From Ornithinimicrobium flavum (GTDB lineage Bacteria; Actinomycetota; Actinomycetes; Actinomycetales; Dermatophilaceae), in the NCBI RefSeq assembly GCF_004526345.1, contig NZ_CP038213.1, forward strand, positions 2,356,001 through 2,420,000: a DNA stretch of 64,000 nucleotides, in the 5' to 3' direction. A program made the position numbers and the translations under genes. Of this stretch, positions 37,879 to 51,424 are shown in pieces. Under the pieces are notes generated by a model that saw nothing but the letters and a program-made list of their open reading frames with translations, was not told the DNA's origin and searched no databases. Every line of letters begins with the position of its first letter. The stretch's first letter is position 1.

Positions 37879-37944
37879 CGTCAAGAACGTGCGTCCGGTC
37901 CGTCACGAACGCGCGTCCGGTCTGGCAGGAACGCGCGTCCGGTC
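37879..37944. repeat. 22-bp tandem repeat, three copies, at the uxuB 3' end
   Basis: Units 37879-37900, 37901-37922 and 37923-37944 share GAACGCGCGTCCGGTC (first unit GAACGTGCGTCCGGTC). The core GAACGCGCGTCC is close to a 12-bp palindrome. The third copy overlaps the uxuB stop codon (37943-37945). The 22-base spacing is about two helical turns, so a repeated protein-binding site is possible; slippage is the plain alternative. Confidence 0.9.
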
Positions 37945-39340
37945 AGGGGGCGGCGACCTCCTGCGCCAGCTCGACGGCCCGGGCGACCACGGCCGGGTCG
38001 GCGAGGCCCCACTGCCCGAGCACGGCGGCGAGCGCCTGCTCCAAGGACCCGGAGACCCGGGACCGGACCTCGTCCTCGTCGGCGTCCGTGAGCGGCGCGC
38101 CCGCGCCGCGGGCGTGCAGCACCCAGGCGGCGACGACGCGCAGGGCTCCGTCGGCCTCGTCGACGCCCCCTGCGGCCAGCGTCGCCCGCAGGGCCGGCAC
38201 GATCCGGACCGGCAGCTTCTGCGACCCGTCCGCGGCGATCTGGGCGAGCAGGTGCCGGATCCGGGGGTTGGCGAAGCGCTCCTCCAGGGCACCGGTGTAG
38301 GCGCGCAGCTGGTCCTCCGGCAGGGTCAGGTGCGGGACCGCCACGTCCCACCACTGCCGGACCCACCCGGCCACGAGCGGGTCGGCGGTCGCCTCGGCGA
38401 CGGTCTCGTGCCCCCGGATCGACCCGGCGTAGGCCAGCAGCGAGTGCGCGCCGTTCAGCAGCCACAGCTTGCGGGTCTCGTAGGGCCGCACGTCGTCAGT
38501 CACGACGGCGCCCACCTCGTCCCAGGCGGGTCGGCCGGCCACGAAGGTCCCGGCGAGGTCCCACTCCGAGAACGGCTCGGTGACGACCACCGCAGGGTCG
38601 GGCACGCCGGTGAGCTCCTCCGCCCGTCGCACGTCCGCCTCCGTGGGCCGCGGCGTGATGCGGTCGACCGCCGTGGTGACGAAGCTGACGTTCTCCTCGA
38701 CCCATGCCGCCAGCCCGGGATCGAGCTCGCGGGCTGCGCCCAGGACCACGCCGCGGGCGACGGCGCCGTTGCCGGGCAGGTTGTCGCACGGGACCACGGT
38801 GAGACCACCCGCCCCGGCCGCCCGACGAGCCGACAGGCCGCTGGCGACCTTGACCGGCATCGTCCTCAGCTCCTCCCGCCGTCCCTCCCGCCAGGCGAGC
38901 AGGTCCGCCCGCACGTCCTCGTCGGTGAGGTCCAGGCTCCCGTCGCCGTCCGCGCAGTAGCCGGCCTCGGTCACCGTCGTGGTGAGGATGGCCACGGCGG
39001 GGTCGGCGAGCGCCTCGTGCCAGGCCGCGAGGTCGGTGCCGGGCCGTGCCCGCACCACGCTCTCGACGACCTCGGCCTCCGCGCCGTCGGCACCGTCCAC
39101 CACCAGCGTGTAGAGACCGTCCTGCGCCTCGAGCAGGTCGGCCACGCCCGGGCTGCGGCCCGTGAAGGCGAGGATCCCCCACCGCTCCTCGGGCGGGCGC
39201 CCCTCGTTGGCGCGGTGGGTGTACCACGCCTGGTGGGCGCGGAAGAAGTTGCCCAGCCCCAGGTGCACCATGCGGACCGGAGGGGCGGGGGTATGCCGTG
39301 ACAGCCCGCCCGTGCGGCCGGTCGTCGTCGCCTCGCTCAT
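37943..39340 (-). CDS. uxuB: Mannitol-dehydrogenase-family uronate reductase, probably D-mannonate oxidoreductase (fructuronate reductase)
   Basis: NAD(H)-dependent polyol/aldonate dehydrogenase of the long-chain family, 465 residues. The Rossmann start is MVHLGLGNFFRAHQAWYT, and VTEAGYC, VPCDNLPGNG and RPYETRKLWLLNGAHSLLAY follow, the last carrying the conserved catalytic lysine region. Together with UxaC directly upstream it should reduce D-fructuronate to D-mannonate; reduction of D-tagaturonate to D-altronate (UxaB activity) cannot be excluded from sequence. ATG 39340 overlaps the uxaC stop (ATGA). The longer open frame to 39595 is rejected. It is the last gene of dctPQM-uxaC-uxuB. Confidence 0.85.
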   Translation of the reverse strand: MSEATTTGRTGGLSRHTPAPPVRMVHLGLGNFFRAHQAWYTHRANEGRPPEERWGILAFTGRSPGVADLLEAQDGLYTLVVDGADGAEAEVVESVVRARPGTDLAAWHEALADPAVAILTTTVTEAGYCADGDGSLDLTDEDVRADLLAWREGRREELRTMPVKVASGLSARRAAGAGGLTVVPCDNLPGNGAVARGVVLGAARELDPGLAAWVEENVSFVTTAVDRITPRPTEADVRRAEELTGVPDPAVVVTEPFSEWDLAGTFVAGRPAWDEVGAVVTDDVRPYETRKLWLLNGAHSLLAYAGSIRGHETVAEATADPLVAGWVRQWWDVAVPHLTLPEDQLRAYTGALEERFANPRIRHLLAQIAADGSQKLPVRIVPALRATLAAGGVDEADGALRVVAAWVLHARGAGAPLTDADEDEVRSRVSGSLEQALAAVLGQWGLADPAVVARAVELAQEVAAP

Positions 39341-40749
39341 AGCCCGAAGACCTCCTTGGGCTGGTCGGTGACGAGGTAGCGCGCGATCTGCATCCCCTCG
39401 TCCTCGGTGAGCCGGTGCTCGGCCACCTGTCCGGCGATGAAGCCGCAGTCCATCCGCCGGGCCATGTCGTGCCGGGCGGGGATGGACAGGAAGGCCCGCG
39501 TGTCGTCGATGAAGCCCGACGTCCGTGTGTAGCCCGCTGTCTCCGTCACCGCCTGACGGAACCGTTTGATCGACTCCGGGGCATCGATGAACCACCAGGG
39601 GACGCCGATCCGCACGCTCGGGTAGAAGCCGGCCAGCGGCGCGAGCTCGCGGCTGAAGATCGTCTCGTCCAGCGTGAAGACCACCACCGTCAGCCCGGCC
39701 GCGGTGCCGAACCGGCTCAGCGCGGGCTGCAGGGCCCGGGTCACCTCGACCGAGACCGGGATGTCCGCGCCGACGTCGGCGCCGAAGGCCTCGAGGGTGC
39801 CGGGGTGGTGGTTGCGGTAGACGGCCGGGTGCAGGGTCATGGTCAGCCCGTCGTCGGCCGCCATCCGGAAGGTCTCGTGCACCATGTGGCGACGGAGCCG
39901 GTCCCCGTCGTCCGCAGTGATGCGACCCGCGCGGGCCTGCGCGTAGAGGCGTTCCGCCTCACCGTCCGCGAGCGGCTCGGTCCCGAGGTCGCGGTGGCTG
40001 TGGTCGGTCGAGACCGCCCCCCGCTGCCGGAAGAACGCCCGACGCTCCTCCATCGCGGCCACCCACCCGGCATACATGCCGGTGTCCTGCCCGGCCACCT
40101 CGCCGAGCCGGTCCACGTCCTGCACCCAGGTCGCCGACGCCGGCTCGAGGTACTTGTCCGGGCGCAGCGTGGGGACGACGCGACGGGGGAAGGAGGGGTC
40201 CTCGGCGAGCGTGCGGTGGTGCTCCAGGTCGTCGCAGGGGTCGTCGGTGGTCGCGAGGAACTCGATGTCGAAGGCGTCCATCAGCGCCCGGGGACGCGAG
40301 CTCTCCCGGCCGATCCAGTCGGCGACCATGTCGTAGATGGCGTCCGCGGTCCCGGCGGAGGGCACGACGTCGACGCCGAAGACCTCGACCAGCTGCTGCT
40401 CCAGCCACAGCCGCATGGGGGTGCCCCGGTAGATCGGCCAGTGCTCGCACAGCAGCCGGAAGGCGCGGCGGGAGTCCTCCTCCGACAGCTCGCCCCGACC
40501 GACCCCGAGGTCGGCCAGGTCGACCCCGCTGGCGTGCATGAGCCGGGTGACGTAGTGGTCGGGGGTGATCAGCAACGAGGCCGGGTCGCGGAAGGGGAGG
40601 TCCTGCGCGAGCCAGGCCGGCGGGACGTGCCCGTGCGGGCTGATGACGGGCAGGTCCGCGACCTCGGCGTAGAGGCGGCGGGCGATCTCCCGGACGCCCG
40701 GGTCGACGGGCAGCAGCCGGTCGGGGTGCAGGGTCAGTCGCTCACTCAT
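39337..40749 (-). CDS. uxaC: Uronate isomerase (glucuronate/galacturonate isomerase)
   Basis: Isomerises D-glucuronate to D-fructuronate and D-galacturonate to D-tagaturonate. The 470-residue protein has the amidohydrolase-like metal site start ISPHGHVPPAWLA, then MDAFDIEFLATTDDPCDDL and FIDDTRAFLSIPARHD, all typical of UxaC. It starts 1 base after the dctM stop and overlaps uxuB, so transporter, isomerase and reductase form one translationally coupled operon. Confidence 0.96.
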   Translation of the reverse strand: MSERLTLHPDRLLPVDPGVREIARRLYAEVADLPVISPHGHVPPAWLAQDLPFRDPASLLITPDHYVTRLMHASGVDLADLGVGRGELSEEDSRRAFRLLCEHWPIYRGTPMRLWLEQQLVEVFGVDVVPSAGTADAIYDMVADWIGRESSRPRALMDAFDIEFLATTDDPCDDLEHHRTLAEDPSFPRRVVPTLRPDKYLEPASATWVQDVDRLGEVAGQDTGMYAGWVAAMEERRAFFRQRGAVSTDHSHRDLGTEPLADGEAERLYAQARAGRITADDGDRLRRHMVHETFRMAADDGLTMTLHPAVYRNHHPGTLEAFGADVGADIPVSVEVTRALQPALSRFGTAAGLTVVVFTLDETIFSRELAPLAGFYPSVRIGVPWWFIDAPESIKRFRQAVTETAGYTRTSGFIDDTRAFLSIPARHDMARRMDCGFIAGQVAEHRLTEDEGMQIARYLVTDQPKEVFGL

Positions 40750-40750
40750 G

Positions 40751-42054
40751 TCACACCAGTCCTAGGGCGGTCGGCAGCCACATCGACAGCTGCGGGACGA
40801 AGACGACGACGAACAGGCCGACGACGATGGCCAGGAGGAACCAGACCAGCTTGCCCACCACCGGCTCGATCCGCAGCCCGGCGACGCGGGCCCCGATGAA
40901 GAGCACGTTGCCCACGGGCGGGGTGATGACGCCCACCGACAGGTTGTAGACGAGGATGGCGCCGAAGTGGACCGGATCGATGCCCATGGAGACCACGATC
41001 GGCAGGAAGATCGGGGTGAAGATGAGGATCGCCGGGGTGGGGTCCATGAAGGTGCCGACCGCCAGCAGGATCAGCATCATGATGATGAGGATCGCCTGCG
41101 GGTTGGTCGTGAGGCCGAGGAGCAGCTCGGACACGAACTCCGGGATGCGGGCGAAGGCCATCATGAAGGACAGCGCCGAGGAGACACCCACCAGGAGCAT
41201 GACGATGGCGGTGGTGCGGGCCGACTCGAGCAGGACCCCCGGCAGCTGGCCGACGCCGAGCTGCCGGTAGGCGAACCCGAGGACCAGGCAGTAGACGACC
41301 GCGATCGCGGCGGACTCGGTGGGGGTGAACCAGCCGAGCAGGATGCCGCCGACGACGATGATGATCATCAGCAGGGAGGGCACGGCCCGCCACAGAGTCA
41401 GCAGGGCCTGGGACAGGCTGGGGCGTGCGCCCGTCTCGGCCACGCCGTACCTCCGGTGCAGGAACATCACCACGACCAGGCAGGCCAGGACCCACACCAG
41501 GCCCGGGCCGACACCGGCCATGAAGAGCGCGGCGATCGAGGTGCTGCTCACCAGGGAGTAGACGATGAAGGTGTTGCTCGGGGGCAGCAGCATCCCGGCG
41601 GGGCGGAGGCCACATTGACGGCGGCGGCGTAGGAACGGTCGTAGCCCTCCTCCCGCATCCGGGGCTGGGTGACCGTGCCGACCGCGGCGGCCGCGGCCAC
41701 GGCGGCGCCGGAGACCGAGCCGAAGAGCCCGTTGGCGACGACGTTGGTGGCGGCCAGGGAGGACGGCAGCCGCCCGGTCATCACCTTGGCGGCGTCGATG
41801 AGCCGCGCGGCGATGCCGCCGGTGTTCATCAGCGCCCCGGCGAGGACGAAGAGCGGGATGGCCAGCAGCGGGAAGCTGTTGGTGCCGGTGAACATGCGTT
41901 GGGCGACGAGGAAGACGGCCCGCTCGGCGCCGAGGAAGACGGTGGCGGCGGCGAGCGACGACAGGCCGATGCCCACCGCGATCGGGAAGCCCAGGGCGAT
42001 GCAGACGACGATGCCGATCAGCAGGACCAGCGCGGCGATGGTCACGGGGTCCAT
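40751..42054 (-). CDS. dctM: TRAP transporter large permease subunit DctM, one apparent frameshift
   Basis: Main transport subunit of a sodium-dependent TRAP importer, about 434 residues and 12-13 membrane helices when repaired. The N-terminal part (GFPIAVGIGLSSLAAA, IPLFVLAGALM, GLFGSVSGAAVAAAAAVGTV) is in one frame. From AGMLLPPSNTFIVYSLV to the end (PTPAILIFTPIFLPIV, GVITPPVGNVLFIGA) it is in another. A base is missing in the C run near 41602. ATG 42054 overlaps the dctQ stop (TGATG). Its context with uxaC and uxuB points to uronate import. Confidence 0.9.
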
Positions 42055-42584
42055 CAGAGGTTCGCCTCCCCGCGCTCCGGCACGTCCCCGCCCACGCCCT
42101 CGTCCAGGACGTAGGGAGGCTCCTTGCCCTGGAGCAGCTCGACCAGGTGGTAGGCGGCGAAGAAGGCGATGATCGCCCCGGTCAGGGGCATGACCGTGTA
42201 CATCCCGCCGACGGTGGCCGGCAGCGAGGACAGCTGCTGGTTCCACGCCCCGGCGCTGGCCCGCAGGCCGCCCCAGACGAGGATGAGCAGTGCCATGGCC
42301 AGCACGGAGACCTGGGCCAGGACCGCGGTGGCCAGCTGACCCTTCGGCGGCTGCTTGCGGACCAGGAAGTCCACCGCGATGTGCCCCTTCTCGGAGAAGA
42401 CCAGGGCGCTGGCGAAGAAGCCCAGCCAGACGAAGGTGTACCGGGCCGCCTCCTCCGACCAGGTGCTGGCCGAGCCCAGGGAGCGGCTCACGACCTGCCA
42501 GACGACGATGAGGACCAGGGCGGCGAAGAGGACCACCGAGGCCCACCTCAGCACCTGGTCCAGCGTGCTCTTGACGATGTTCAC
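42054..42584 (-). CDS. dctQ: TRAP transporter small permease subunit DctQ
   Basis: A 176-residue membrane protein with four helices, matching the DctQ family (ARYTFVWLGFFASALVFSEKGHIAVDF is the typical central block). It has a hydrophilic C-terminal extension of about 35 residues. It lies 7 bases after dctP and overlaps dctM by one base. It links the binding protein to the large permease in a uronate-type TRAP system. Confidence 0.93.
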   Translation of the reverse strand: MNIVKSTLDQVLRWASVVLFAALVLIVVWQVVSRSLGSASTWSEEAARYTFVWLGFFASALVFSEKGHIAVDFLVRKQPPKGQLATAVLAQVSVLAMALLILVWGGLRASAGAWNQQLSSLPATVGGMYTVMPLTGAIIAFFAAYHLVELLQGKEPPYVLDEGVGGDVPERGEANL

Positions 42585-42591
42585 GGGGTCC

Positions 42592-43605
42592 TCACTCTCC
42601 CGCCGCGGCGCGGGCGGCGTCGAACAGGGCCTGCTGGGACGGGGTGGTCAGGAAGCGGTCCTGCAGCGGCTCCAGGGCCTGCGCGAACGCCTCCTCGTCC
42701 ACCTCGTGGAACTGCGCACCACCGGCCTTCGCCTCGGCGATCGCCTCCTCGGTGGCCTCCGCCCACAGCTCGGCGTGCTCGAGGGAGGTGGCCTCCCACT
42801 CCTCGAGGAAGATCTGGCGGTCCTGGTCGTCCATCCCGGCCAGGGTGTCGCTGTTGACGATGAGGTAGTCCAGTCCGACCAGGTGGTTGGTCTCGGACAG
42901 GTGCGGGGCGACCTCGAAGTGCTTCTGGGTGACGTAGGAGACCTCGTTGTTCTCCGCCCCGTCCAGCACGCCGGACTGCATGGCCGTGTAGACCTCGCCG
43001 AAGGCCATCGGGGTGGCCGAGCCGCCCATGGCCGTGACCATCGCCAGGTGGAGCGGGCTCTCCTGCACCCGGATCTTGAGGCCGGCCAGGTCGGCCGGCT
43101 CGGTCACCGGCTTCGAGGTGTAGATGTGACGGGAGCCCTGGGTGAACCCGCCGAGGACGGTGAAGTTCTCCCGCTCCTCCAGCGAGGTGTAGAGGTCGCC
43201 GACGATGGCGTCGTCGTTGATGACCCTCAGCTGGTGCTCCACGTCGTCGAAGACCTTGGGCATGTTGAAGACGAGGAAGTCCGGGTGGAGGTTCTCCAGC
43301 TGGGTGCCGGAGACGATCGCCAGGGCGATGATGTCGTCGGAGACCAGTTGGAGGGCCTCGGCCTGGGCCCCGAGCGTCTCGTTGGCGTAGACGTCGACGG
43401 CCAGACGCCCCTCGGTGCGCTCCTGCAGCCGCCCGTCGAAGCGCTGCAGGGCGATGTAGCTGGGGTGGCCCTCGGCCTGGTTGAGGGCGAGGCGCAGGAC
43501 GGTCCGCTCGTCCTGCCCGCCGGGGGCACCGGCCGCCGAGCACGCCGAGAGCCCGAGCGCGAGGGTCACGGCGAGCACCCCCGCCCGTGATGATGTGGTC
43601 CGCAC
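42592..43605 (-). CDS. dctP: TRAP transporter substrate-binding lipoprotein DctP
   Basis: Extracytoplasmic solute receptor, 337 residues from GTG 43605. It has a signal sequence ending in LSAC, so it is probably lipid-anchored. The substrate-carboxylate arginine lies in GLKIRVQESPLHLAMVTAMG, followed by PMAFGEVYTAMQSGVLDGAE, a block usual for sugar-acid-binding TRAP receptors. An in-frame ATG at 43662 is possible, but the GTG with GAAAGG upstream gives the expected signal peptide. The 19-bp operator lies about 88 bases upstream. Ligand is inferred from uxaC/uxuB: D-glucuronate or D-galacturonate. Confidence 0.9.
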   Translation of the reverse strand: MRTTSSRAGVLAVTLALGLSACSAAGAPGGQDERTVLRLALNQAEGHPSYIALQRFDGRLQERTEGRLAVDVYANETLGAQAEALQLVSDDIIALAIVSGTQLENLHPDFLVFNMPKVFDDVEHQLRVINDDAIVGDLYTSLEERENFTVLGGFTQGSRHIYTSKPVTEPADLAGLKIRVQESPLHLAMVTAMGGSATPMAFGEVYTAMQSGVLDGAENNEVSYVTQKHFEVAPHLSETNHLVGLDYLIVNSDTLAGMDDQDRQIFLEEWEATSLEHAELWAEATEEAIAEAKAGGAQFHEVDEEAFAQALEPLQDRFLTTPSQQALFDAARAAAGE

Positions 43606-43692
43606 TGCCCAAGGCCTTTCGTCGTGGTCGACCCCGACGTCGCGGCGGGACCGTACCGTCATACAAGCAACGCCCCGGGACCGGCGGCACGG

Positions 43693-43711
43693 TGTTGCCA
43701 CAAGTTGCCGG
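43693..43711. promoter_or_regulatory. Operator site 1 between dctP and the LarA-like gene
   Basis: TGTTGCCACAAGTTGCCGG, with TTGCC twice at a 10-base spacing. It matches site 2 (46059-46077, opposite strand) at 18 of 19 positions. It lies in the 140-base divergent promoter region, 35 bases upstream of the LarA-like ATG. The LacI-type protein encoded at 45025-46041 is the obvious candidate to bind it. Confidence 0.75.
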
Positions 43712-43745
43712 TCACGGCCGGCCGGCCGGGCCTAGGCTGACCGGT

Positions 43746-45038
43746 ATGACGAACCTCCCGCTCCCCTGCCGTCTCGTCGGCGGACCGCACGAGCAGGTCA
43801 GCCCCGAGCAGCTCGACGACCTCGTCCGGACGGCGCTGGACGACGTCGAGGACCTGGCCGGACAGGACGTGGTCCTCGTCATCCCCGACGGCACCCGCTC
43901 CTGCCCGCTCCCGCTGCTGGTCGGCACCCTGCACCGCCACCTCTCCCCCGTGGTCGCCTCGCTCACGGCGGTCATCGCCCTGGGGACCCACTCCTACATG
44001 GAGCCCGAGGAGATCGACCGGCTGCTCGGCGTCGGTGGCGAGGGTCGCCCCGGGAGCCTGGAGGAGGCCTTCCCCGGTCTGCGCGTGGTCAACCACGAGT
44101 GGGCGGACCCGGACATGCTCGTCCACGTCGGCACCGTCCCGGCCGCCCGGATCGCCGAGCTGTCCGAGGGGCGGCTCGAGGTGGACGCCCCCATCGTCAT
44201 CAACCGGCACGTCGTGGAGGCCGACACCGCGATCGTCGTCGGCCCGGTCTTCCCGCACGAGGTCGTGGGGATCTCCGGGGGCAACAAGTACTTCATCCCC
44301 GGCGTGGCGAGCCAGGAGTTCATCGACATGACCCACTGGGTCGGCGCGCTCATCACCTCCACCGAGATCATCGGCACGACCGGCATCACCCCGGTCCGCG
44401 CCATGATCAACGAGGGGGCGGCGATGATCCCGACCCGCCGGCTGGCCCTGTGTTGCGTGGTGCGCTCGGGCAGCGGCGACCTGGAGGCGGCCGCCTTCGG
44501 CACCCCGGAGGACGCCTGGGCCGCCACCGCGGCGATCGCCTCCGAGACGCACGTGGAGTGGCTCGACGAGCCGATGCAGCGGGTCATCGCGGTCATGCCC
44601 ACCCGCTACGACGACATCTGGACGGCCGCCAAGGGCGGTTACAAGACCGAGCCCGCGATCGCCGACGGCGGCGAGGTGGTCATCTACGCGCCGCACGTGA
44701 CCGAGGTGTCGGAGACCCACCACGAGATCTACGACATCGGCTACCACTGCCGCGACTACTTCGTGAAGCAGTGGGACGACTTCAGGCACATCCACTGGGG
44801 GGTGCTCGCCCACTCCACCCACCTGCGCGGGCAGGGGACCTACGACCCGCAGACCGGGGAGGAGCGTCTGCGGATCCGGGTGACCCTGGCGACCGGCATC
44901 CCCCGCGAGGTGTGCGAGCGGATCAACCTGGGCTACCTCGACCCGGCCACCGTCGACCTGGAGGCCCTCGCGACGGAGCCCGGCACCACGGTGATCCCCA
45001 ACGCCGGCGAGGTCCTCTACCGGCTCAGGCCGTCCTGA
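43746..45038 (+). CDS. LarA-superfamily nickel-pincer-nucleotide enzyme, predicted D-mannonate/D-gluconate 2-epimerase
   Basis: A 430-residue protein homologous along its length to lactate racemase LarA, which uses a nickel-pincer nucleotide bound to a lysine to remove hydride from C2 of 2-hydroxy acids. His171, Lys181 (GISGGNKYFIPGVAS) and His197 have the same mutual spacing as LarA His174, cofactor-binding Lys184 and Ni-ligand His200. His117 (VNHEW) is the likely second catalytic base. The family is known to include racemases and D-gluconate 2-epimerases. Neighbours (uxaC, uxuB, gnd, larE, larB, larC) favour epimerisation of D-mannonate to D-gluconate over lactate racemisation; this is inference. 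TAGGCT lies 7 bases before ATG 43746, so it may be leaderless. It overlaps the convergent regulator gene by 14 bases. Confidence 0.85.
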   Translation: MTNLPLPCRLVGGPHEQVSPEQLDDLVRTALDDVEDLAGQDVVLVIPDGTRSCPLPLLVGTLHRHLSPVVASLTAVIALGTHSYMEPEEIDRLLGVGGEGRPGSLEEAFPGLRVVNHEWADPDMLVHVGTVPAARIAELSEGRLEVDAPIVINRHVVEADTAIVVGPVFPHEVVGISGGNKYFIPGVASQEFIDMTHWVGALITSTEIIGTTGITPVRAMINEGAAMIPTRRLALCCVVRSGSGDLEAAAFGTPEDAWAATAAIASETHVEWLDEPMQRVIAVMPTRYDDIWTAAKGGYKTEPAIADGGEVVIYAPHVTEVSETHHEIYDIGYHCRDYFVKQWDDFRHIHWGVLAHSTHLRGQGTYDPQTGEERLRIRVTLATGIPREVCERINLGYLDPATVDLEALATEPGTTVIPNAGEVLYRLRPS

Positions 45039-46041
45039 CCGGTCCGGTCGAGCCGCGGACGACCAGCCGGACGGGCACGACCTGGGTCTGCTCCCGTGAC
45101 TCGGTCCCGCCCGCCACCTGGGCCAGGACCGCCCGGGCGGCGATCTCCCCCAGGACGGTGACCGGCTGCGCCACCGTCGTCAGCCCGGGGCGGACGATGT
45201 CGGCGCTGATGGTGTTGTCGAAGCCGACCACGCTCACCTCGTCCGGCACCTCGACCCCCAGCTCCTGCAGGCCCCGGATCACCCCCACGCCGACCTGGTC
45301 GTTGTAGGTCTGGACGGCCGTCAGCCCCGCGCGCACGATCTCCTCCGCCGCGGCCCGACCACCCACCATGGTCGGCTGCACCGGACCGATCCGGACGTCG
45401 GTGAGCATCAGCTCGTGACAGGCCTCGCGGACCGCCCGCCACCGCGCCCCGTCCGCCCAGGACGCGTCCGGCCCGGCGACGTACCCGATCCTGGTGTGCC
45501 CCAGCGAGGCCAGGTGCTCCACGGACCGCCGGACGCCACGGGCGTTGTCGGGGTGGACGCACGGCAGGCCGGGCACCCTGCGGTTGAGCACCACCAACGG
45601 GACCTGCCGGGCGAGCCCCCGCAGCTCGGTGTCCGAGAGGCGGGAGGAGGTGACGATCAGACCGTCGGAGGCCGCCAGCGTGCGGCGCAGGACCTGGCGT
45701 TCCTGCGCCGCCGACTCGCGGCAGTCCGCGACCACCAGGCTGACGTCCGCCTCGGCGGCCGCGTGCTCGGCACCACGGATGATGCCGAAGTAGTAGGGGT
45801 TGGTGATGTCGCTGACCGCCAGCGTGATGACGCCGGCCCGGGACCGGACGGGGGCCCGGAAGAGCGGCTCAGCGCGGTAGCCGAGCCGCTCCGCGGCGTC
45901 GTGGATACGTTGGGCGGTCGCGCTGCTGACCCGGCCGGGGCGGGAGAAGGCCCGGCTCACCGTCGACGGGTGCACCCCGACCTCGCGGGCCACGTCGTAG
46001 ATGGTCGCCCTGCCGGGGCTGCCGGCCTCCTCGCCTGCCAC
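45025..46041 (-). CDS. LacI-family transcriptional regulator of the uronate/nickel-pincer cluster
   Basis: A 338-residue repressor-type protein. The N-terminal helix-turn-helix is TIYDVAREVGVHPSTVSRAF followed by the hinge region. The rest is a periplasmic-binding-protein-like sensor (SDITNPYYFGIIRGAE, VVGFDNTISADIVRPGLTTV). GTG 46041 is used. The gene lies between the LarA-like gene and gnd. A 19-bp sequence 18 bases upstream of its start recurs in the dctP/LarA-like promoter region. This suggests autoregulation and control of both divergent units by a uronate or aldonate signal. Repressor rather than activator is assumed from the family. Confidence 0.93.
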   Translation of the reverse strand: MAGEEAGSPGRATIYDVAREVGVHPSTVSRAFSRPGRVSSATAQRIHDAAERLGYRAEPLFRAPVRSRAGVITLAVSDITNPYYFGIIRGAEHAAAEADVSLVVADCRESAAQERQVLRRTLAASDGLIVTSSRLSDTELRGLARQVPLVVLNRRVPGLPCVHPDNARGVRRSVEHLASLGHTRIGYVAGPDASWADGARWRAVREACHELMLTDVRIGPVQPTMVGGRAAAEEIVRAGLTAVQTYNDQVGVGVIRGLQELGVEVPDEVSVVGFDNTISADIVRPGLTTVAQPVTVLGEIAARAVLAQVAGGTESREQTQVVPVRLVVRGSTGPVRTA

Positions 46042-46058
46042 CCGTCCACCCTATCCCC

Positions 46059-46077
46059 CCGGCAACTTCTGGCAACA
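46059..46077. promoter_or_regulatory. Operator site 2 between the LacI-type gene and gnd
   Basis: The plus strand reads CCGGCAACTTCTGGCAACA; its reverse complement matches site 1 at 18 of 19 positions. It lies in the 94-base spacer between the divergent regulator gene and gnd, 59 bases upstream of the gnd ATG, well placed to control both. Confidence 0.75.
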
Positions 46078-46135
46078 GGCTGTGGCCGACGCGGTCGGCC
46101 CCGACGATGGGGGGACGCCCACCGAAGGAGCTCCC

Positions 46136-47713
46136 ATGACCGCATCCGCAGACCCCCGTCCGTCCGAGCAGCCACCCGCCGCGCCCGAGGAGGCCGCGGC
46201 CGAGCCCGCGACCGCCCCGGCCACCGACGTCCTCGACCCCTCGGGCGGGGCGCCGGGCCCGACTGCGGCGGGCGGGGTCGCTGCCGAGGCCGCCGTGGGG
46301 GTCGTCGGCATGGCGGTCATGGGCAGCAACCTGGCCCGCAACCTCGCCCGACGGGGGCACGTGGTCGCCGTCTTCAACCGCACGACCGCCCGGACCGAGG
46401 CCGTGCTGACGGCCCACGGGCACGAGGGGACCTTCCTCGCGGCGCCGGACCTCGAGACCTTCGTGGCCTCCCTGGTCCGCCCGCGGCGGATCATCGTCAT
46501 GGTGCAGGCCGGGCCGGGCACCGACGCGGTCCTCGACGCCCTCGTCCCCCTGCTCGAGGAGGGTGACATCGTCGTCGACGGCGGCAACGCCCACTACCAG
46601 GACACCCGTCGCCGCGAGCAGCGGCTGCGCGGGGAGGGCCTGCACTTCGTGGGGGCCGGCATCTCCGGCGGCGAGGTCGGTGCCCTCGAGGGACCCTCGA
46701 TCATGCCGGGCGGGTCGCCGGAGTCCTACGCCGCGCTCGGCCCGATCCTGGAGAGCATCGCGGCCGACGTCGACGGCGAGCCGTGCTGCGCCCACATGGG
46801 TCCGGACGGTGCCGGTCACTTCGTCAAGATGGTGCACAACGGCATCGAGTACGCCGACATGCAGTTCATCGCCGAGGCGTACGACCTGCTGCGCGCGGCC
46901 GGGGTCGAGCCGCAGGCGATGTCCGAGACCTTCCGCCGGTGGAACGAGGGCGACCTCGACTCCTACCTCGTCGAGGTCACCGCCGAGGTGCTGGCCCAGC
47001 AGGACGCCCGCACCGGCGACGCCCTGGTCGACTCGATCGTCGACGCCGCGGGTCAGAAGGGCACCGGGTCCTGGACCGTCCAGGCCGCCCTCGAGCTGGG
47101 CGTGCCGGTGAACGCCATCGCGGAGTCGGTCTTCGCCCGCTCGGCCTCGAGCCACCCCGAGCTGCGCGCCGCCGCCCGGGGGGCGCTGGCCGGGCCTGCG
47201 CGGACGATCGACCTCGAGGGTGGTCTCGACCGCTTCGTCGAGGACGTGCGGCAGTCGCTGTGGTCGGCCAAGGTGGTCGCCTACGCCCAGGGCCTGCACC
47301 TCATCCGCGTCGCCTCCGACACCTACGGCTGGGACGTCGACATCGAGTCCGTGGCCCGGATCTGGCGGGCCGGGTGCATCATCCGCGCCCGGCTCCTGGA
47401 GCGGATCCGCAGCGAGTATGCCGCGCACCACCTGGTCACCCTGCTGGAGGCGCCGGGGATCAGGGACGGTCTGGCCGGGACCCAGGAGTCCTGGCGACGG
47501 GTGGTCGGGGTGGCGGCCCGGGCCGGGGTGCCCGTCCCCGGCTTCGCCGCCTCGCTGGCCTACTACGACACCCTGCGGGCGGACCGGCTGCCCGCCGCCC
47601 TCGTCCAGGGCCAGCGCGACTACTTCGGGGCGCACACGTATGGTCGGGTCGATGAAGAGGGCAGCTTCCACACCGACTGGTCCGGGGACCGCTCCGAGGC
47701 CCGTGTCGGCTGA
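46136..47713 (+). CDS. gnd: 6-phosphogluconate dehydrogenase (decarboxylating) with N-terminal extension
   Basis: Oxidative decarboxylation of 6-phosphogluconate to ribulose 5-phosphate and CO2. The 525-residue protein has the Rossmann motif GVVGMAVMGSNLARN only from residue 55, then VFNRTTART (NADP-type), GGNAHYQDT, GISGGEVGALEGPSIMPGG and GAGHFVKMVHNGIEY. The Ala/Pro-rich first 50 residues are extra compared with usual members of about 470-490. ATG 46136 is supported by GAAGGAG 5 bases upstream, so the extension looks real. It heads gnd-larE-larB. Its product position fits the fate of D-gluconate made from uronates after phosphorylation by a kinase not in the window. Confidence 0.95.
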   Translation: MTASADPRPSEQPPAAPEEAAAEPATAPATDVLDPSGGAPGPTAAGGVAAEAAVGVVGMAVMGSNLARNLARRGHVVAVFNRTTARTEAVLTAHGHEGTFLAAPDLETFVASLVRPRRIIVMVQAGPGTDAVLDALVPLLEEGDIVVDGGNAHYQDTRRREQRLRGEGLHFVGAGISGGEVGALEGPSIMPGGSPESYAALGPILESIAADVDGEPCCAHMGPDGAGHFVKMVHNGIEYADMQFIAEAYDLLRAAGVEPQAMSETFRRWNEGDLDSYLVEVTAEVLAQQDARTGDALVDSIVDAAGQKGTGSWTVQAALELGVPVNAIAESVFARSASSHPELRAAARGALAGPARTIDLEGGLDRFVEDVRQSLWSAKVVAYAQGLHLIRVASDTYGWDVDIESVARIWRAGCIIRARLLERIRSEYAAHHLVTLLEAPGIRDGLAGTQESWRRVVGVAARAGVPVPGFAASLAYYDTLRADRLPAALVQGQRDYFGAHTYGRVDEEGSFHTDWSGDRSEARVG

Positions 47714-48569
47714 GCTGCCCCCGCCACCGGCCCACCTCGTCGGGGCGCTGCAGGCCTTCGCGGCCGGTCTGCAGGGCGTGTCCCGGATGGGCGTCGCCTA
47801 CTCGGGCGGGGTGGACTCCTCGGTGCTGCTGGCCCTGGCCCTGCGCGCGCTGGGCCGGGACGGGGTGGTGGCGGTCACGGGCATCTCGCCCAGCCTGGCG
47901 GCCCGCGACCGGTCGCGGGCGCGCGCCGTCGCCGAGGGTCTGGGCGCGACCCTGGTCGAGGTCCGCACCCACGAGATGGACCGGGAGGACTACCGCCGCA
48001 ACGGGGTGGACCGGTGCTACTTCTGCAAGGACGAGCTCTTCTCCGTCATCTCCGACGAGCTGGTGGCCGAGCACGAGTTGGACGCGGTCGCCTACGGCGA
48101 GAACGCCGACGACGCCCTGCGTCCCGACCGGCCGGGAGCGGGGGCGGCGACCGAGCACCGGGTGCTGCGACCGCTGGCCGAGGCCGGTCTGGACAAGGCC
48201 GCGGTGCGCGAGGTCGCGGCGTGGCTGGGCCTGCCCACCGCCGACACCCCGGCCTCCCCCTGCCTGGCCTCGCGGATCCCCCACCACCACGAGGTGACCC
48301 CGGAGAAGCTGGCCCAGGTGGAGCAGGCCGAGGACGCCGTCCTGGCGCTCGGGGTCCCCGACGTGCGGGTCCGCCACCACGGCGACCTCGCCCGCATCGA
48401 GGTGCCCCCCGAGCACCTCGGCACCGTCCTGGCCGCCCGGGGGGAGCTGACCTCGACGCTGCATCGCCTCGGCTTCCGGCACGTCACCGTCGACCTGGAC
48501 GGCCTGCGCTCGGGGGTCTTCACCCTCGACGCGCTGGGGCTGGGCGCTCCCCGGGGCGGGGCCGGATGA
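47703..48569 (+). CDS. larE: ATP-dependent sulfur insertase LarE (nickel-pincer cofactor synthesis)
   Basis: Adds sulfur to the pyridinium dicarboxylate mononucleotide precursor of the nickel-pincer cofactor. The 288-residue protein has the PP-loop YSGGVDSSVLL at about residues 33-43, then RCYFCKDELF and SPCLASRIPH. These hold its only three cysteines. This three-Cys set matches the LarE group thought to bind a [4Fe-4S] cluster rather than the form that sacrifices one cysteine; that is inference. GTG 47703 overlaps the gnd end by 11 bases, and its stop overlaps larB (ATGA). Confidence 0.93.
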   Translation: MSAELPPPPAHLVGALQAFAAGLQGVSRMGVAYSGGVDSSVLLALALRALGRDGVVAVTGISPSLAARDRSRARAVAEGLGATLVEVRTHEMDREDYRRNGVDRCYFCKDELFSVISDELVAEHELDAVAYGENADDALRPDRPGAGAATEHRVLRPLAEAGLDKAAVREVAAWLGLPTADTPASPCLASRIPHHHEVTPEKLAQVEQAEDAVLALGVPDVRVRHHGDLARIEVPPEHLGTVLAARGELTSTLHRLGFRHVTVDLDGLRSGVFTLDALGLGAPRGGAG

Positions 48570-49312
48570 CGCGGGGGGACGGTGGGGGGCCGGAGGAGCT
48601 CGCGCGCGACGTCCCGTACGCCCCCGACGTCCCGCACGCCCCCGACGTCCACCTCGACCTGGGCCGCGCCGAGCGCCGCGGTTATCCGGAGGCGGTCCTG
48701 TGCGACGCCAAGAGCGTCGAGCAGGTGCGGCGGATCGCCGCGCTGTGGCGCGAGAGCGCCACCCCCGGCCCGGTCCTCTTCACGCGGGCGCAGGACGAAC
48801 GGGTCGCCGCCGTCCTCGCCGAGCTCCCCGACGCCCTGCACGACCCCGTCGCACGCATGGTGGTGTGGCCGGCCGAACCCCCTGCGCCGCAGGGTGGCCG
48901 GGTCGTGGTGGTCGCCGCCGGCAGCTCGGACCTGCCCGTCGCCCGGGAGGCGGAGCTGACCGCCCGTCACCTGGGGCGCGAGACCCGGCTCGTCGTGGAC
49001 GTGGGCGTGGCGGGGCTGCACCGGATCCTGGCCCGGCAGGAGGAGCTGCGCGATCCTGCCGTCCGGGCCATCGTCGTGGCCGCCGGCATGGACGGGGCCC
49101 TGCCCTCGGTGGTGGCCGGCCTGGTGAGCGCCCCGGTCGTGGCCGTCCCCACGTCCGTGGGCTACGGCGCCTCGTTCGGCGGCGTCGCCGCGCTGCTCAC
49201 GATGCTCAACACCTGCGCCCCCGGGGTGGCCGTCGTGAACATCGACAACGGCTACGGCGCAGGTCATCTCGCCGCTCAGATCGCGGCGCCGGTCTCCCAG
49301 CCCCGGGCCTGA
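48566..49312 (+). CDS. larB: LarB, carboxylase/hydrolase of nickel-pincer cofactor synthesis
   Basis: Carboxylates the pyridinium ring of nicotinate adenine dinucleotide and releases AMP, the first step of cofactor assembly. The 248-residue protein has a C-terminal domain resembling PurE-type mutases, with IVVAAGMDGALPSVVAGLVS and PVVAVPTSVGYGASFGG diagnostic. The N-terminal part contains a duplicated Pro-Asp-Val element of low complexity. ATG 48566 overlaps the larE stop. Its 3' end overlaps the convergent larC gene by 37 bases. Confidence 0.93.
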   Translation: MTRGDGGGPEELARDVPYAPDVPHAPDVHLDLGRAERRGYPEAVLCDAKSVEQVRRIAALWRESATPGPVLFTRAQDERVAAVLAELPDALHDPVARMVVWPAEPPAPQGGRVVVVAAGSSDLPVAREAELTARHLGRETRLVVDVGVAGLHRILARQEELRDPAVRAIVVAAGMDGALPSVVAGLVSAPVVAVPTSVGYGASFGGVAALLTMLNTCAPGVAVVNIDNGYGAGHLAAQIAAPVSQPRA

Positions 49313-50478
49313 GCGGCGGATTCCGCGGCACGCAGCACCACCCGCAGGGGCACTCCCTGCCGCAGGGCCAGGTCGCGGCAATCCTCCAGCTCCGGGGTCA
49401 CCGTGAGGATCCGCCCGTCCCGGCCACCGATCTTGACGCGAACCGGCTCCCCCAGCACGGGCACCTCGCGCCATCCCCGCTCCAGGGCCGTTCGGCGCAC
49501 GTCGTGCCAGCGGACCCCCAGCGTCGTCGTGTGCCGGAGCAGCAGGTCGACCACCGTGCCGCGGTCATCCGGCTGGGCCAGCGCCGTGACGACGGTGCCG
49601 TGGCGTCCCTTCTTCATCAGCACCGGGGCCGTCCAGACGTCCAGCGCCCCGCCGAGGAGCAGCTCCTCCACGACGACCGGCCAGACGCGGGGGTCGAGGT
49701 CGTCCACGGTGGCGCTGATCTCGACGAGGGTCTGCTCGTGGGGGTGGGGTGAGCCCTCGTGGAGCACGACGCGGGTGACGTTGGCGCGACCCTCGACGTC
49801 CCTGGTGCCGGCGCCGGTCCCGGTCGCGAGCACGCGGCCGCCGGGGCCGGGAGCATGTCCCTCCCCCAGGGCCGCCAGGAGCGCGACCCCGGTCGGTGTG
49901 GCGCACTCCCCCACCAGCGTGCCGTCGGTGCCCGGCACGAGAGCGCTGCCGGTCAGGAGCCCCAGCACCGCGGGCACGGGCACGGGCAGCGTGCCGTGCT
50001 CGGTGCGCACGGTCCCCGAGCCCAGTCCGACCGGTCCGCAGGTGAGGCGGTCGACGCCCAGGTCGGCCAGCGCCGCGCACACCCCGACGACGTCGGCCAC
50101 GGAGTCCCAGGCGCCGACCTCGTGGAAGTGCACCGCCTCCACCGGTATGCCGTGCGCACCGGCCTCGGCCCGCGCCAGCAGCCCGAAGGTGCCCAGCGCG
50201 TCGGCCCGCACGCGCTCGTCGAGGTCGGCCTCCGACAGGAGGGCCCGCAGCTCGTCCCACGCCCGTGCCGGCGACGGCGCGGCGTGGTCCACGACCACGT
50301 GGAGGGCGGCCAGCCCGGCCCGCGTCACCCGCGTCGTGCGGATCTCGACCTCGTCCGGCAGCACCGCCGCGACCGCCCTCCGCACCGCCTCGAGGTCGGC
50401 CCCCGCGTCCAACAGGGCGCCGAGCAGCATGTCCCCGGCGACGCCCGCGGACACGTCCACCCACGCGTGTCGGCTCAC
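49276..50478 (-). CDS. larC: LarC, CTP-dependent nickel insertase, single uninterrupted gene
   Basis: Inserts nickel into the pincer nucleotide. The 400-residue protein has VDVSAGVAGDMLLGALLDAG at its N terminus, HFHEVGAWDSVADVVGVCAA, and the C-terminal ferredoxin-like part (TVDDLDPRVWPVVVEELLLGG, APVLMKKGRHG). Both domains are in one frame, unlike the split larC1/larC2 of Lactiplantibacillus plantarum that needs a programmed frameshift. GTG 50478 is chosen because the conserved sequence begins there; the open frame continues to 50541. It is transcribed towards larB, with overlapping 3' ends. Confidence 0.93.
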   Translation of the reverse strand: MSRHAWVDVSAGVAGDMLLGALLDAGADLEAVRRAVAAVLPDEVEIRTTRVTRAGLAALHVVVDHAAPSPARAWDELRALLSEADLDERVRADALGTFGLLARAEAGAHGIPVEAVHFHEVGAWDSVADVVGVCAALADLGVDRLTCGPVGLGSGTVRTEHGTLPVPVPAVLGLLTGSALVPGTDGTLVGECATPTGVALLAALGEGHAPGPGGRVLATGTGAGTRDVEGRANVTRVVLHEGSPHPHEQTLVEISATVDDLDPRVWPVVVEELLLGGALDVWTAPVLMKKGRHGTVVTALAQPDDRGTVVDLLLRHTTTLGVRWHDVRRTALERGWREVPVLGEPVRVKIGGRDGRILTVTPELEDCRDLALRQGVPLRVVLRAAESAAQARGWETGAAI

Positions 50479-50539
50479 GTCTGCGACCCTACCCCTCCGG
50501 CGCAGGACCGCCCGCGCGGCGACCGTAGGCTGTCGCGCC

Positions 50540-51424
50540 ATGACGCTCTCCGCTGACGACCTGCGCCCCCTGCGGCACGACGCGGTGGACGGCGACCTGC
50601 GGTCGTGGCGGGACGTCGAGCTGCCGGGCCTGGACCGTCGGGCGGAGGTCTACGTCTGGCTGCCGCCGGGCTACGACGACGGCGACGACCGCTACCCGGT
50701 GCTCTACCTGCACGACGGGCACAACCTGTTCCTGCCCGAGCGGGCCACCGGCGGGGTGACGTGGGACGTCGACCGCGCCATGAGCGCGCTGGCGCGCGAC
50801 GGCATACCCGCCGTCGTGGTGGCGGTGCCGTGCCACCCGACCGAGCGGGGGGAGGAGTACACGCCCCACCACCTCCCCGGCGTCGGCGGTGGCCGGGCGG
50901 ACCGCTACGCGACCTTCCTCGCCGACCACCTCAAGCCGGCGGTCGACGCCGCGCTGCGCACCCGCCCGGAGCCCGAGCACACCCTCACGGCCGGCAGCTC
51001 GCTCGGCGGCGTGGTCAGCGCCTACCTGTGGAGCAGCCGGCCGGACGTCTTCGGCGGCGCCGGAGTCTTCTCCCCTGCCTGGTGGTGGCCGGACACCACC
51101 GTCGGCGAGCGGGGCCTGGCGGACGTCGAGCAGGTCCTGGTGGAGGGTCGGCCCCTGGGCCGGGTCTACCTCGACGTCGGGGGCCGGGAGCACCACCTGG
51201 ACGAGGACGTCCGGCGTCACTACGTCGTCGCCGCCGAGCGGCTGGCCGCCCGCCTGCGCGAGGCGGGGGTGCCGCTGCGCTACGTCTTCGACTCGCAGGC
51301 CTACCACTTCGAGACGGCCTGGGCCGAGCGGTTCGCCCCCGCGGTCCGCTGGCTGCTCCGGGGGTATGCCGTGGCGCCGCCGCCCTACGTGCAGCGCGAC
51401 CTGCCCGCGCAGGAGGACGTGTGA
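50540..51424 (+). CDS. Alpha/beta-hydrolase esterase (PF00756-type)
   Basis: A 294-residue cytoplasmic hydrolase of the esterase D/enterochelin-esterase-like fold. YPVLYLHDGHNLF lies near the N terminus, the nucleophile serine is in TAGSSLGGVVSAYLW, and the probable catalytic histidine is in AYHFETAWAE. No signal peptide is seen. TAGGCT lies 8 bases before ATG 50540, suggesting a leaderless transcript. Its stop overlaps the start of the transporter gene (GTGA). The substrate is unknown. Confidence 0.8.
   Translation: MTLSADDLRPLRHDAVDGDLRSWRDVELPGLDRRAEVYVWLPPGYDDGDDRYPVLYLHDGHNLFLPERATGGVTWDVDRAMSALARDGIPAVVVAVPCHPTERGEEYTPHHLPGVGGGRADRYATFLADHLKPAVDAALRTRPEPEHTLTAGSSLGGVVSAYLWSSRPDVFGGAGVFSPAWWWPDTTVGERGLADVEQVLVEGRPLGRVYLDVGGREHHLDEDVRRHYVVAAERLAARLREAGVPLRYVFDSQAYHFETAWAERFAPAVRWLLRGYAVAPPPYVQRDLPAQEDV

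Follow-up and report, generated by a model that had tools for sequence, protein, structure and literature searches.

A predicted nickel-dependent shunt from D-glucuronate to D-gluconate in Ornithinimicrobium flavum, in which a LarA homologue would take the place of mannonate dehydratase

How does a bacterium that appears equipped to turn D-glucuronate into D-mannonate use the product when the enzymes that usually take mannonate further are not found? This question is raised by a gene cluster of Ornithinimicrobium flavum, which we analysed within a 64,000-nucleotide stretch of its genome (assembly GCF_004526345.1, contig NZ_CP038213.1, positions 2,356,001 to 2,420,000; 'the window', from whose first letter all positions below are counted). 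The cluster, at 37943-50541, runs in the order uxuB, uxaC, dctM, dctQ and dctP (minus strand), larA (plus), lacI (minus), gnd, larE and larB (plus) and larC (minus). We predict with good confidence that it encodes a route from D-glucuronate via D-fructuronate and D-mannonate to D-gluconate, that the last step is likely catalysed by the nickel-pincer LarA homologue, and that this shunt is likely the sole exit for mannonate. The conversion of mannonate to gluconate by a LarA-like enzyme had been inferred in a preliminary description of the window. At the sequence level it is now supported by the likeness of the enzyme to GntE2 of Thermotoga maritima, by the lack of matches for UxuA and for 2-keto-3-deoxy-6-phosphogluconate (KDPG) aldolase, by two gluconokinases and by a co-occurrence survey.

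In sequence and in fold, the LarA homologue is nearest to T. maritima GntE2 (LarAH20, structure 4nar), a proven D-mannonate/D-gluconate 2-epimerase (PMC7583248), and it has both the Lar_N domain and the LarA fold. The catalytic residues D48, H82, H171 and K296 and the residues R51, K181 and H197, which bind the nickel-pincer nucleotide (NPN), match those of 4nar and are invariant in 28 of 28 aligned sequences. Equally invariant (28/28) is E172-V173, which fits the loop signature E-V or E-S defined for groups 18-20 of the LarA homologues (LarAH) in PMC7583248. The predicted function of the gene is likely that of an NPN-dependent D-mannonate/D-gluconate 2-epimerase. Its product reached the cut-off of none of the six listed NCBIfam LarA models, the best being NPN_18_hexonate (NF052594, LarAH group 18; 150 versus 500 bits). 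It is the only Lar_N/LarA gene of the genome, and its nearest relatives are those of Ornithinimicrobium sp. W1679 (91% identical) and O. pekingense (89%). When 4nar was used as outgroup in a tree, the outgroup branch measured 7.2 changes per site, and the tree is therefore uninformative on group 19 versus group 20. The idea of a phosphate-binding pocket in which the invariant H359 faces N348 of 4nar was dropped, as the alignment puts N348 at G352.

The genome is a single contig of 3,712,913 bases (99.73% complete). UxuA gave 0 matches in it (control positive in 5 of 14 genomes), as did KDPG aldolase (PF01081; control positive in 8 of 14). Edd was not found in the genome either, the sole match to the IlvD/Edd family being ilvD, above cut-off. 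A search with the enolase-superfamily C-terminal domain, made for ManD and glucarate dehydratase, returned three proteins, two of which are menC and enolase, both above cut-off. The third MR_MLE protein matched muconate cycloisomerase best (199 bits, cut-off 335) and adjoins a catechol 1,2-dioxygenase (above cut-off), and is therefore read as belonging to catechol catabolism; talarate/galactarate and galactonate dehydratase models matched it weakly (69-92 bits, far below cut-off). A ManD-type mannonate dehydratase was thus rejected for this genome, there being no ManD among the three enolase-superfamily proteins. As UxuA, ManD, Edd and KDPG aldolase all lack a match, the genome has no recognised route of mannonate dehydration (KdgK was not searched), whereas for gluconate both a kinase and Gnd are present: two GntK matches (TIGR01313) lie above cut-off, one of them directly beside a gluconate permease gene. 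Since the dehydratase and the aldolase of the usual route were not found, the shunt is likely the only way out for mannonate in O. flavum. The lack of uxuA, which the preliminary description had noticed in the cluster, thus extends to the whole genome, and the window is indeed without a gluconate kinase, none being found in the cluster and no FGGY match in the window. As evidence that would count against it, the description had named a co-regulated uxuA-kdgK pathway together with missing epimerase activity, or a genome devoid of gluconate kinase; at the sequence level neither objection refuted the shunt, as the genome search gave no uxuA and no KDPG aldolase gene but two gntK genes above cut-off.

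The co-occurrence survey covered 396 genomes, sampled evenly from the order, in which a match of E 1e-60 or better to the window LarA counted as a larA homologue. larA was present in 44 of the 396 genomes (19 genera), UxaC in 172 and UxuA in 60, 56 of them above cut-off. In support of the proposed shunt, larA excluded uxuA (0 of 44 larA genomes had both, whether or not the four weak UxuA matches were counted) and accompanied uxaC (42 of 44, versus 130 of the 352 other genomes). Among the 172 uxaC genomes, uxuA occurred in 0 of 42 with larA versus 48 of 130 without (Fisher 1.7e-7, which overstates independence because a single family, f12, supplies 24 of the 44 larA genomes). Counted by genus (61 with uxaC), 18 had larA and uxaC, 20 had uxuA and uxaC, and none was common to both (p 2e-4). 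One further genus, g41, contains a larA genome without uxaC (G097) and a uxuA genome (G083), which makes it a setting in which a switch between the two enzymes could be studied. KDPG aldolase and GntK were counted in 80 genomes, namely all 44 with larA and the first 36 of the 48 with uxaC and uxuA; a KDPG aldolase homologue was found in 27 of 44 larA versus 34 of 36 uxuA genomes (p 5e-4). GntK or an FGGY kinase near larA was found in 25 of the 44, in 8 of these through a xylulokinase-like FGGY type alone.

The neighbourhoods of larA were compared in two sets, which share at least seven loci: 'named loci', the best 80 of 554, with up to 10 kb on each side and many cut by contig ends, and 'order loci', from the 43 other larA genomes of the survey. 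Among the 80 named loci, uxaC was found in 52, uxuB in 53, either of them in 57, a lacI-like gene in 49, gnd in 21, larE in 30, larB in 27, larC in 28, gntK in 3, an FGGY kinase in 16 and uxuA in 0. The 43 order loci contained uxaC or uxuB in 27 cases, gnd in 5, gntK in 4, FGGY in 14 and uxuA in 0, and the full set of uxaC, uxuB, gnd and a kinase occurred in 8 of 80 named and 4 of 43 order loci. Around 20 surveyed uxuA genes there were 12 uxaC and 13 uxuB, but no gnd (0/20, versus 21/80 near larA in the named loci, p 0.006). Among the gntK loci, four (L056, L057, L060 and L161) have gntK behind larA in the same orientation, the aligned stretches being 24-102 bases apart, and the remaining three (L067, L132 and L176) have it on the opposite strand. 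In 14 of 16 named and 5 of 14 order loci with FGGY, including that of O. pekingense (L103), the FGGY kinase gene comes immediately after uxuB in the same orientation, 36-162 bases apart by aligned stretches. For a first FGGY type (four scanned: L049, L115, L158 and L171), gluconokinase was the best NCBIfam model (296-368 bits, cut-off 648), and the L049 protein had the gluconate kinase 3gbt as its best solved match (277 bits). For a second type, present in eight loci of family f12, it was xylulokinase (one scanned, L073). One named locus, L104 (QEUR01000095.1), comes from a metagenome-assembled genome labelled Acidobacteria and encodes an 88% identical LarA together with uxuB, uxaC, lacI, gnd and larE; it is probably a mis-binned actinobacterial contig, the other named loci being actinobacterial by title.

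Both divergent promoter regions of the cluster contain an operator-like site (Table 1), with the common pattern TTGCCA(C/G)AAGTTGCCGG, equally TTGCCA(C/G)AAGTTGCC. Allowing up to three mismatches, these were the two matches in the window (chance mean 0.13; two were reached in 2 of 100 shuffles), and the 3.71 Mb genome had 11 such places, the pattern read backwards giving 13. With at most one mismatch, the genome matched at the two cluster sites only. A relaxed form, TTGCCANNNGTTGCC, whose three free positions were picked after inspecting relatives, was sought in the 300 bases before larA. Allowing one mismatch at most, 35 of 79 named loci had it there (1 of the 80 was excluded, lacking upstream DNA), compared with 1.3% of 1452 random stretches from the same loci; it occurred in 32 of the 49 named loci with a lacI homologue. 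LacI-family operators are usually palindromes; the operator-like site is not one, but repeats TTGCC directly with a period of 10 bases. A LacI-type regulator would probably keep the two divergent promoters repressed as long as neither substrate nor intermediate is present. Membership of the gntK genes in this regulon was considered but is not supported, as no operator match with at most one mismatch lies near them. The regulon-like block of the preliminary description stands as far as its genes, all in place, and the two promoters are concerned; its TRAP (tripartite ATP-independent periplasmic) importer has a frameshifted dctM.

In the proposed mechanism, UxaC would isomerise glucuronate to fructuronate, which UxuB would reduce to mannonate. 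LarA with its nickel cofactor would invert C2 of mannonate by hydride transfer to give gluconate, one GntK would phosphorylate the latter, and Gnd would oxidise 6-phosphogluconate to ribulose 5-phosphate, so that the carbon would enter the pentose phosphate pathway. The set for NPN biosynthesis is complete, with larB, larC and larE each above the NCBIfam cut-off.

Enzyme and shunt as such are already known. The preliminary description knew of no account of the complete route; in fact, a 2012 study had already proposed for T. maritima that mannonate is epimerised to gluconate, which gluconokinase and Gnd then process (Rodionova 2012, via PMC6978723, PMC7583248 and PMC3750489). In 2020, GntE1 and GntE2 were demonstrated to be active epimerases in a paper that also tied group 19 to uronic acid metabolism and doubted its substrate (PMC7583248). 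In addition, gntE is a predicted mannonate utilisation enzyme in Thermotoga (PMC7953866), methods for NPN enzymes are given in PMC11796402, and LacI-family uronate regulators are mentioned in PMC4052901. The UxaR regulon of T. maritima comprises gnd-uxaR-uxaE-uxaD-gntE-gntK plus kdgA-kdgK-uxuB-uxuA. That is, the GntE2 system has its own dehydratase operon in the same regulon, whereas UxuA and KDPG aldolase were not found in O. flavum; moreover, the regulator is of GntR type there and of LacI type here, and gntK lies within the UxaR regulon but elsewhere in the O. flavum genome. With the Ashwell isomerase pathway (UxaC-UxuB-UxuA-KdgK-KdgA), whose dehydratase route is the one given in the reviews PMC6353982 and PMC12076931, O. 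flavum has the first two steps in common, whereas UxuA and KdgA were not detected (KdgK not searched). GntE1 of Corynebacterium glutamicum (LarAH19) resembles the window enzyme in being actinobacterial and in its uronic acid context, and has gluconate 2-epimerase activity in vitro. Our C. glutamicum control genome gave no Lar_N match, and Corynebacterium was absent among the 120 matches listed (of 8000) in a Nocardia LarA protein search; the characterised GntE1 may come from another C. glutamicum strain. An earlier description of a stand-alone shunt in Actinomycetota, accompanied by a regulator of LacI type and by cofactor genes of its own, was not found in our literature search, which covered titles, the beginnings of abstracts and selected passages. 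What appears to be new, judged from the sequences, is thus a group, the Actinomycetota, in which the shunt would replace mannonate dehydratase, and the argument from context on the function of GntE1-type enzymes.

Several observations weigh against this interpretation. At the substrate side, the GntE2 positions E155, S156, G286 and N348 correspond to E172, V173, A295 and G352 of the window enzyme, of which one in four is identical, with changes from S to V, G to A and N to G. The KM (Michaelis constant) of C. glutamicum GntE1 for D-mannonate is 120 mM, and the study describing the enzyme questions whether mannonate is its native substrate (PMC7583248). The top NCBIfam model of UxuB is fructuronate reductase at 262 bits (cut-off 603), closely followed by DalD (246 bits), and its best solved relative is 4im7 YdfI (233 bits; mannitol dehydrogenase 229); because the family score is well below cut-off, the name UxuB leans on context. 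Both gntK genes lie outside the cluster, and neither has an adjacent operator match with at most one mismatch in the whole genome. In the survey, GntK above cut-off was rarer in larA genomes (15/44) than in uxuA genomes (28/36), no kinase was detected in 19 of 44 larA genomes (FGGY genes away from larA were not searched), and the 27 larA genomes noted above do carry a KDPG aldolase homologue. Neither uxaC nor uxuB was near larA in 23 of 80 named and 16 of 43 order loci, several of them on short contigs, and the excess of gnd near larA over uxuA was not significant in the order loci (5/43 versus 0/20, p 0.17). Finally, both larA and uxuA are missing from 82 of the 172 genomes with uxaC; other exits must therefore exist in the order, and these genomes may use another mannonate exit or have another fate for fructuronate.

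The order of the last steps could be different. If a kinase came first, mannonate would be phosphorylated and the LarA homologue would epimerise 6-phosphomannonate to 6-phosphogluconate, as in Lactobacillus suebicus, whose extracts carry out both reactions, with no genes assigned to them (PMC6978723). Like the shunt proposed for O. flavum, this route leads from mannonate to 6-phosphogluconate without UxuA; it differs in step order, and PMC6978723 does not use the term LarA. The very high KM of GntE1 for free mannonate and the FGGY or GntK kinases in the larA and gnd loci of some relatives would suit it. However, GntE2 (PMC7583248) and the eukaryotic GntE, Phytophthora LarAH15 (PMC11770544), use free D-mannonate, no basic residue was seen in the window enzyme at the substrate-side positions known from the literature, and the genome has two kinases of GntK type, while E. 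coli GntK is unable to use mannonate (as cited in PMC6978723). We therefore consider a kinase-first order improbable.

Still less probable is that the substrate of the LarA homologue is an aldaric or uronic acid, as in an epimerisation of D-glucarate to D-mannarate. PMC7583248 suggests this for group 19, prompted by the high KM of GntE1 and the uronic acid context, and the weak dehydratase matches of the third MR_MLE protein could be taken to agree with it. That protein, however, scores best as muconate cycloisomerase, though below cut-off, and lies beside a catechol 1,2-dioxygenase, no glucarate dehydratase model was among the listed matches of the three MR_MLE proteins, and the linkage of larA to uxuB and gnd, and in some relatives to gntK, would be left unexplained. 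A dehydratase of an unrecognised family, with the LarA homologue serving another hexonate and gnd linked by chance, is just as hard to believe: the 82 uxaC genomes without larA or uxuA do speak for other exits, but KDPG aldolase has no match in the genome, larA and uxuA are mutually exclusive in the sample, and gnd recurs near larA. Conversion of free mannonate to gluconate by the LarA homologue thus remains our preferred reading.

Table 1. Predicted features of the cluster, with window positions
Feature	Position	Strand	Basis and remarks
uxuB-like, predicted D-fructuronate reductase (mannitol dehydrogenase family)	37943..39340	-	Pfam PF01232 + PF08125
uxaC, glucuronate isomerase	39337..40749	-	NCBIfam NF002794, 513 bits (cut-off 387); Pfam PF02614
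dctM, TRAP large permease, broken reading frame	40751..42057	-	TIGR00786; start approximate
dctQ, TRAP small permease	42054..42584	-	best NCBIfam YiaM, 58 bits, below cut-off 260
dctP, TRAP solute-binding protein	42592..43701	-	NF037995 + TIGR00787 above cut-off
operator-like site TTGCCACAAGTTGCCGG, dctP/larA divergent promoter region	43695..43711	+	
gntE-like larA homologue, predicted nickel-pincer D-mannonate/D-gluconate 2-epimerase	43746..45038	+	
lacI-family regulator, predicted cluster repressor	45025..46041	-	PF00356, PF13377
second operator-like site TTGCCAGAAGTTGCCGG, one-base variant, lacI/gnd divergent promoter region	46059..46075	-	
gnd, 6-phosphogluconate dehydrogenase	46136..47713	+	NF006765, 677 bits (cut-off 413); start inferred from ribosome-binding-like GGAG
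larE, sulfur transferase of nickel-pincer cofactor synthesis	47703..48569	+	TIGR00268, 277 bits (cut-off 150); GTG start inferred
larB, nickel-pincer cofactor synthesis	48566..49312	+	NF033503, 265 bits (cut-off 175)
larC, nickel insertion protein	49276..50541	-	TIGR00299 + NF052512 above cut-off; PF01969, 404 bits; start may be near 50478

The dctM gene is split over two reading frames near 41585-41602, and TIGR00786 covers its C-terminal part only (255.7 bits, cut-off 268.5), whereas the O. pekingense homologue (L103) is intact and aligns to it in two frames. The break may be a sequencing error or mark a young pseudogene; the TRAP importer may therefore be inactive, or a base call wrong. The true start of dctP probably lies inside the annotated open reading frame. 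For larC, the LarC1 and LarC2 models both scored above the NCBIfam cut-off. ATGA overlaps join the uxaC stop to the uxuB start and, likewise, larE to larB, and gnd overlaps larE by 11 bases, given the GTG start of larE. By this layout, gnd and the two cofactor genes would belong to one transcription unit.

As to the distribution of the cluster, its sequences suggest that it has probably moved between families. In the tree, the window LarA clusters with that of O. pekingense, those of two Propionibacteriaceae and that of G342, a genome of its own family; the LarA proteins of three further genomes of the family (G122, G213 and G296) are placed apart from it. In a genome of the same genus (G257), no larA, uxaC or uxuA was found. 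Two Embleya plasmid records (NZ_CP108777.1 and NZ_CP108785.1, 3.1 and 5.7 Mb) carry LarA homologues that are 57-58% identical.

For a wider claim we see the balance as even: that across a broad part of the Actinomycetota a nickel-pincer epimerase has replaced, not supplemented, mannonate dehydratase, that growth on glucuronate is obligately nickel-dependent there, with all uronate carbon reaching the pentose phosphate pathway by way of gluconate and Gnd, and that this settles D-mannonate (or its 6-phosphate) as the substrate of GntE1-type enzymes. If true, the linkage of NPN cofactor genes to gnd would be explained, and the database name lactate racemase, given to most such proteins among the matches listed, would be corrected. 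The role of GntE1-type enzymes, open in print, would become directly testable by genetics, in organisms that would allow the GntE shunt to be studied without a parallel UxuA route. A central sugar-acid pathway of many actinobacteria would then depend on one of the rarer metal cofactors, and the availability of nickel would set a limit to their growth on uronates.

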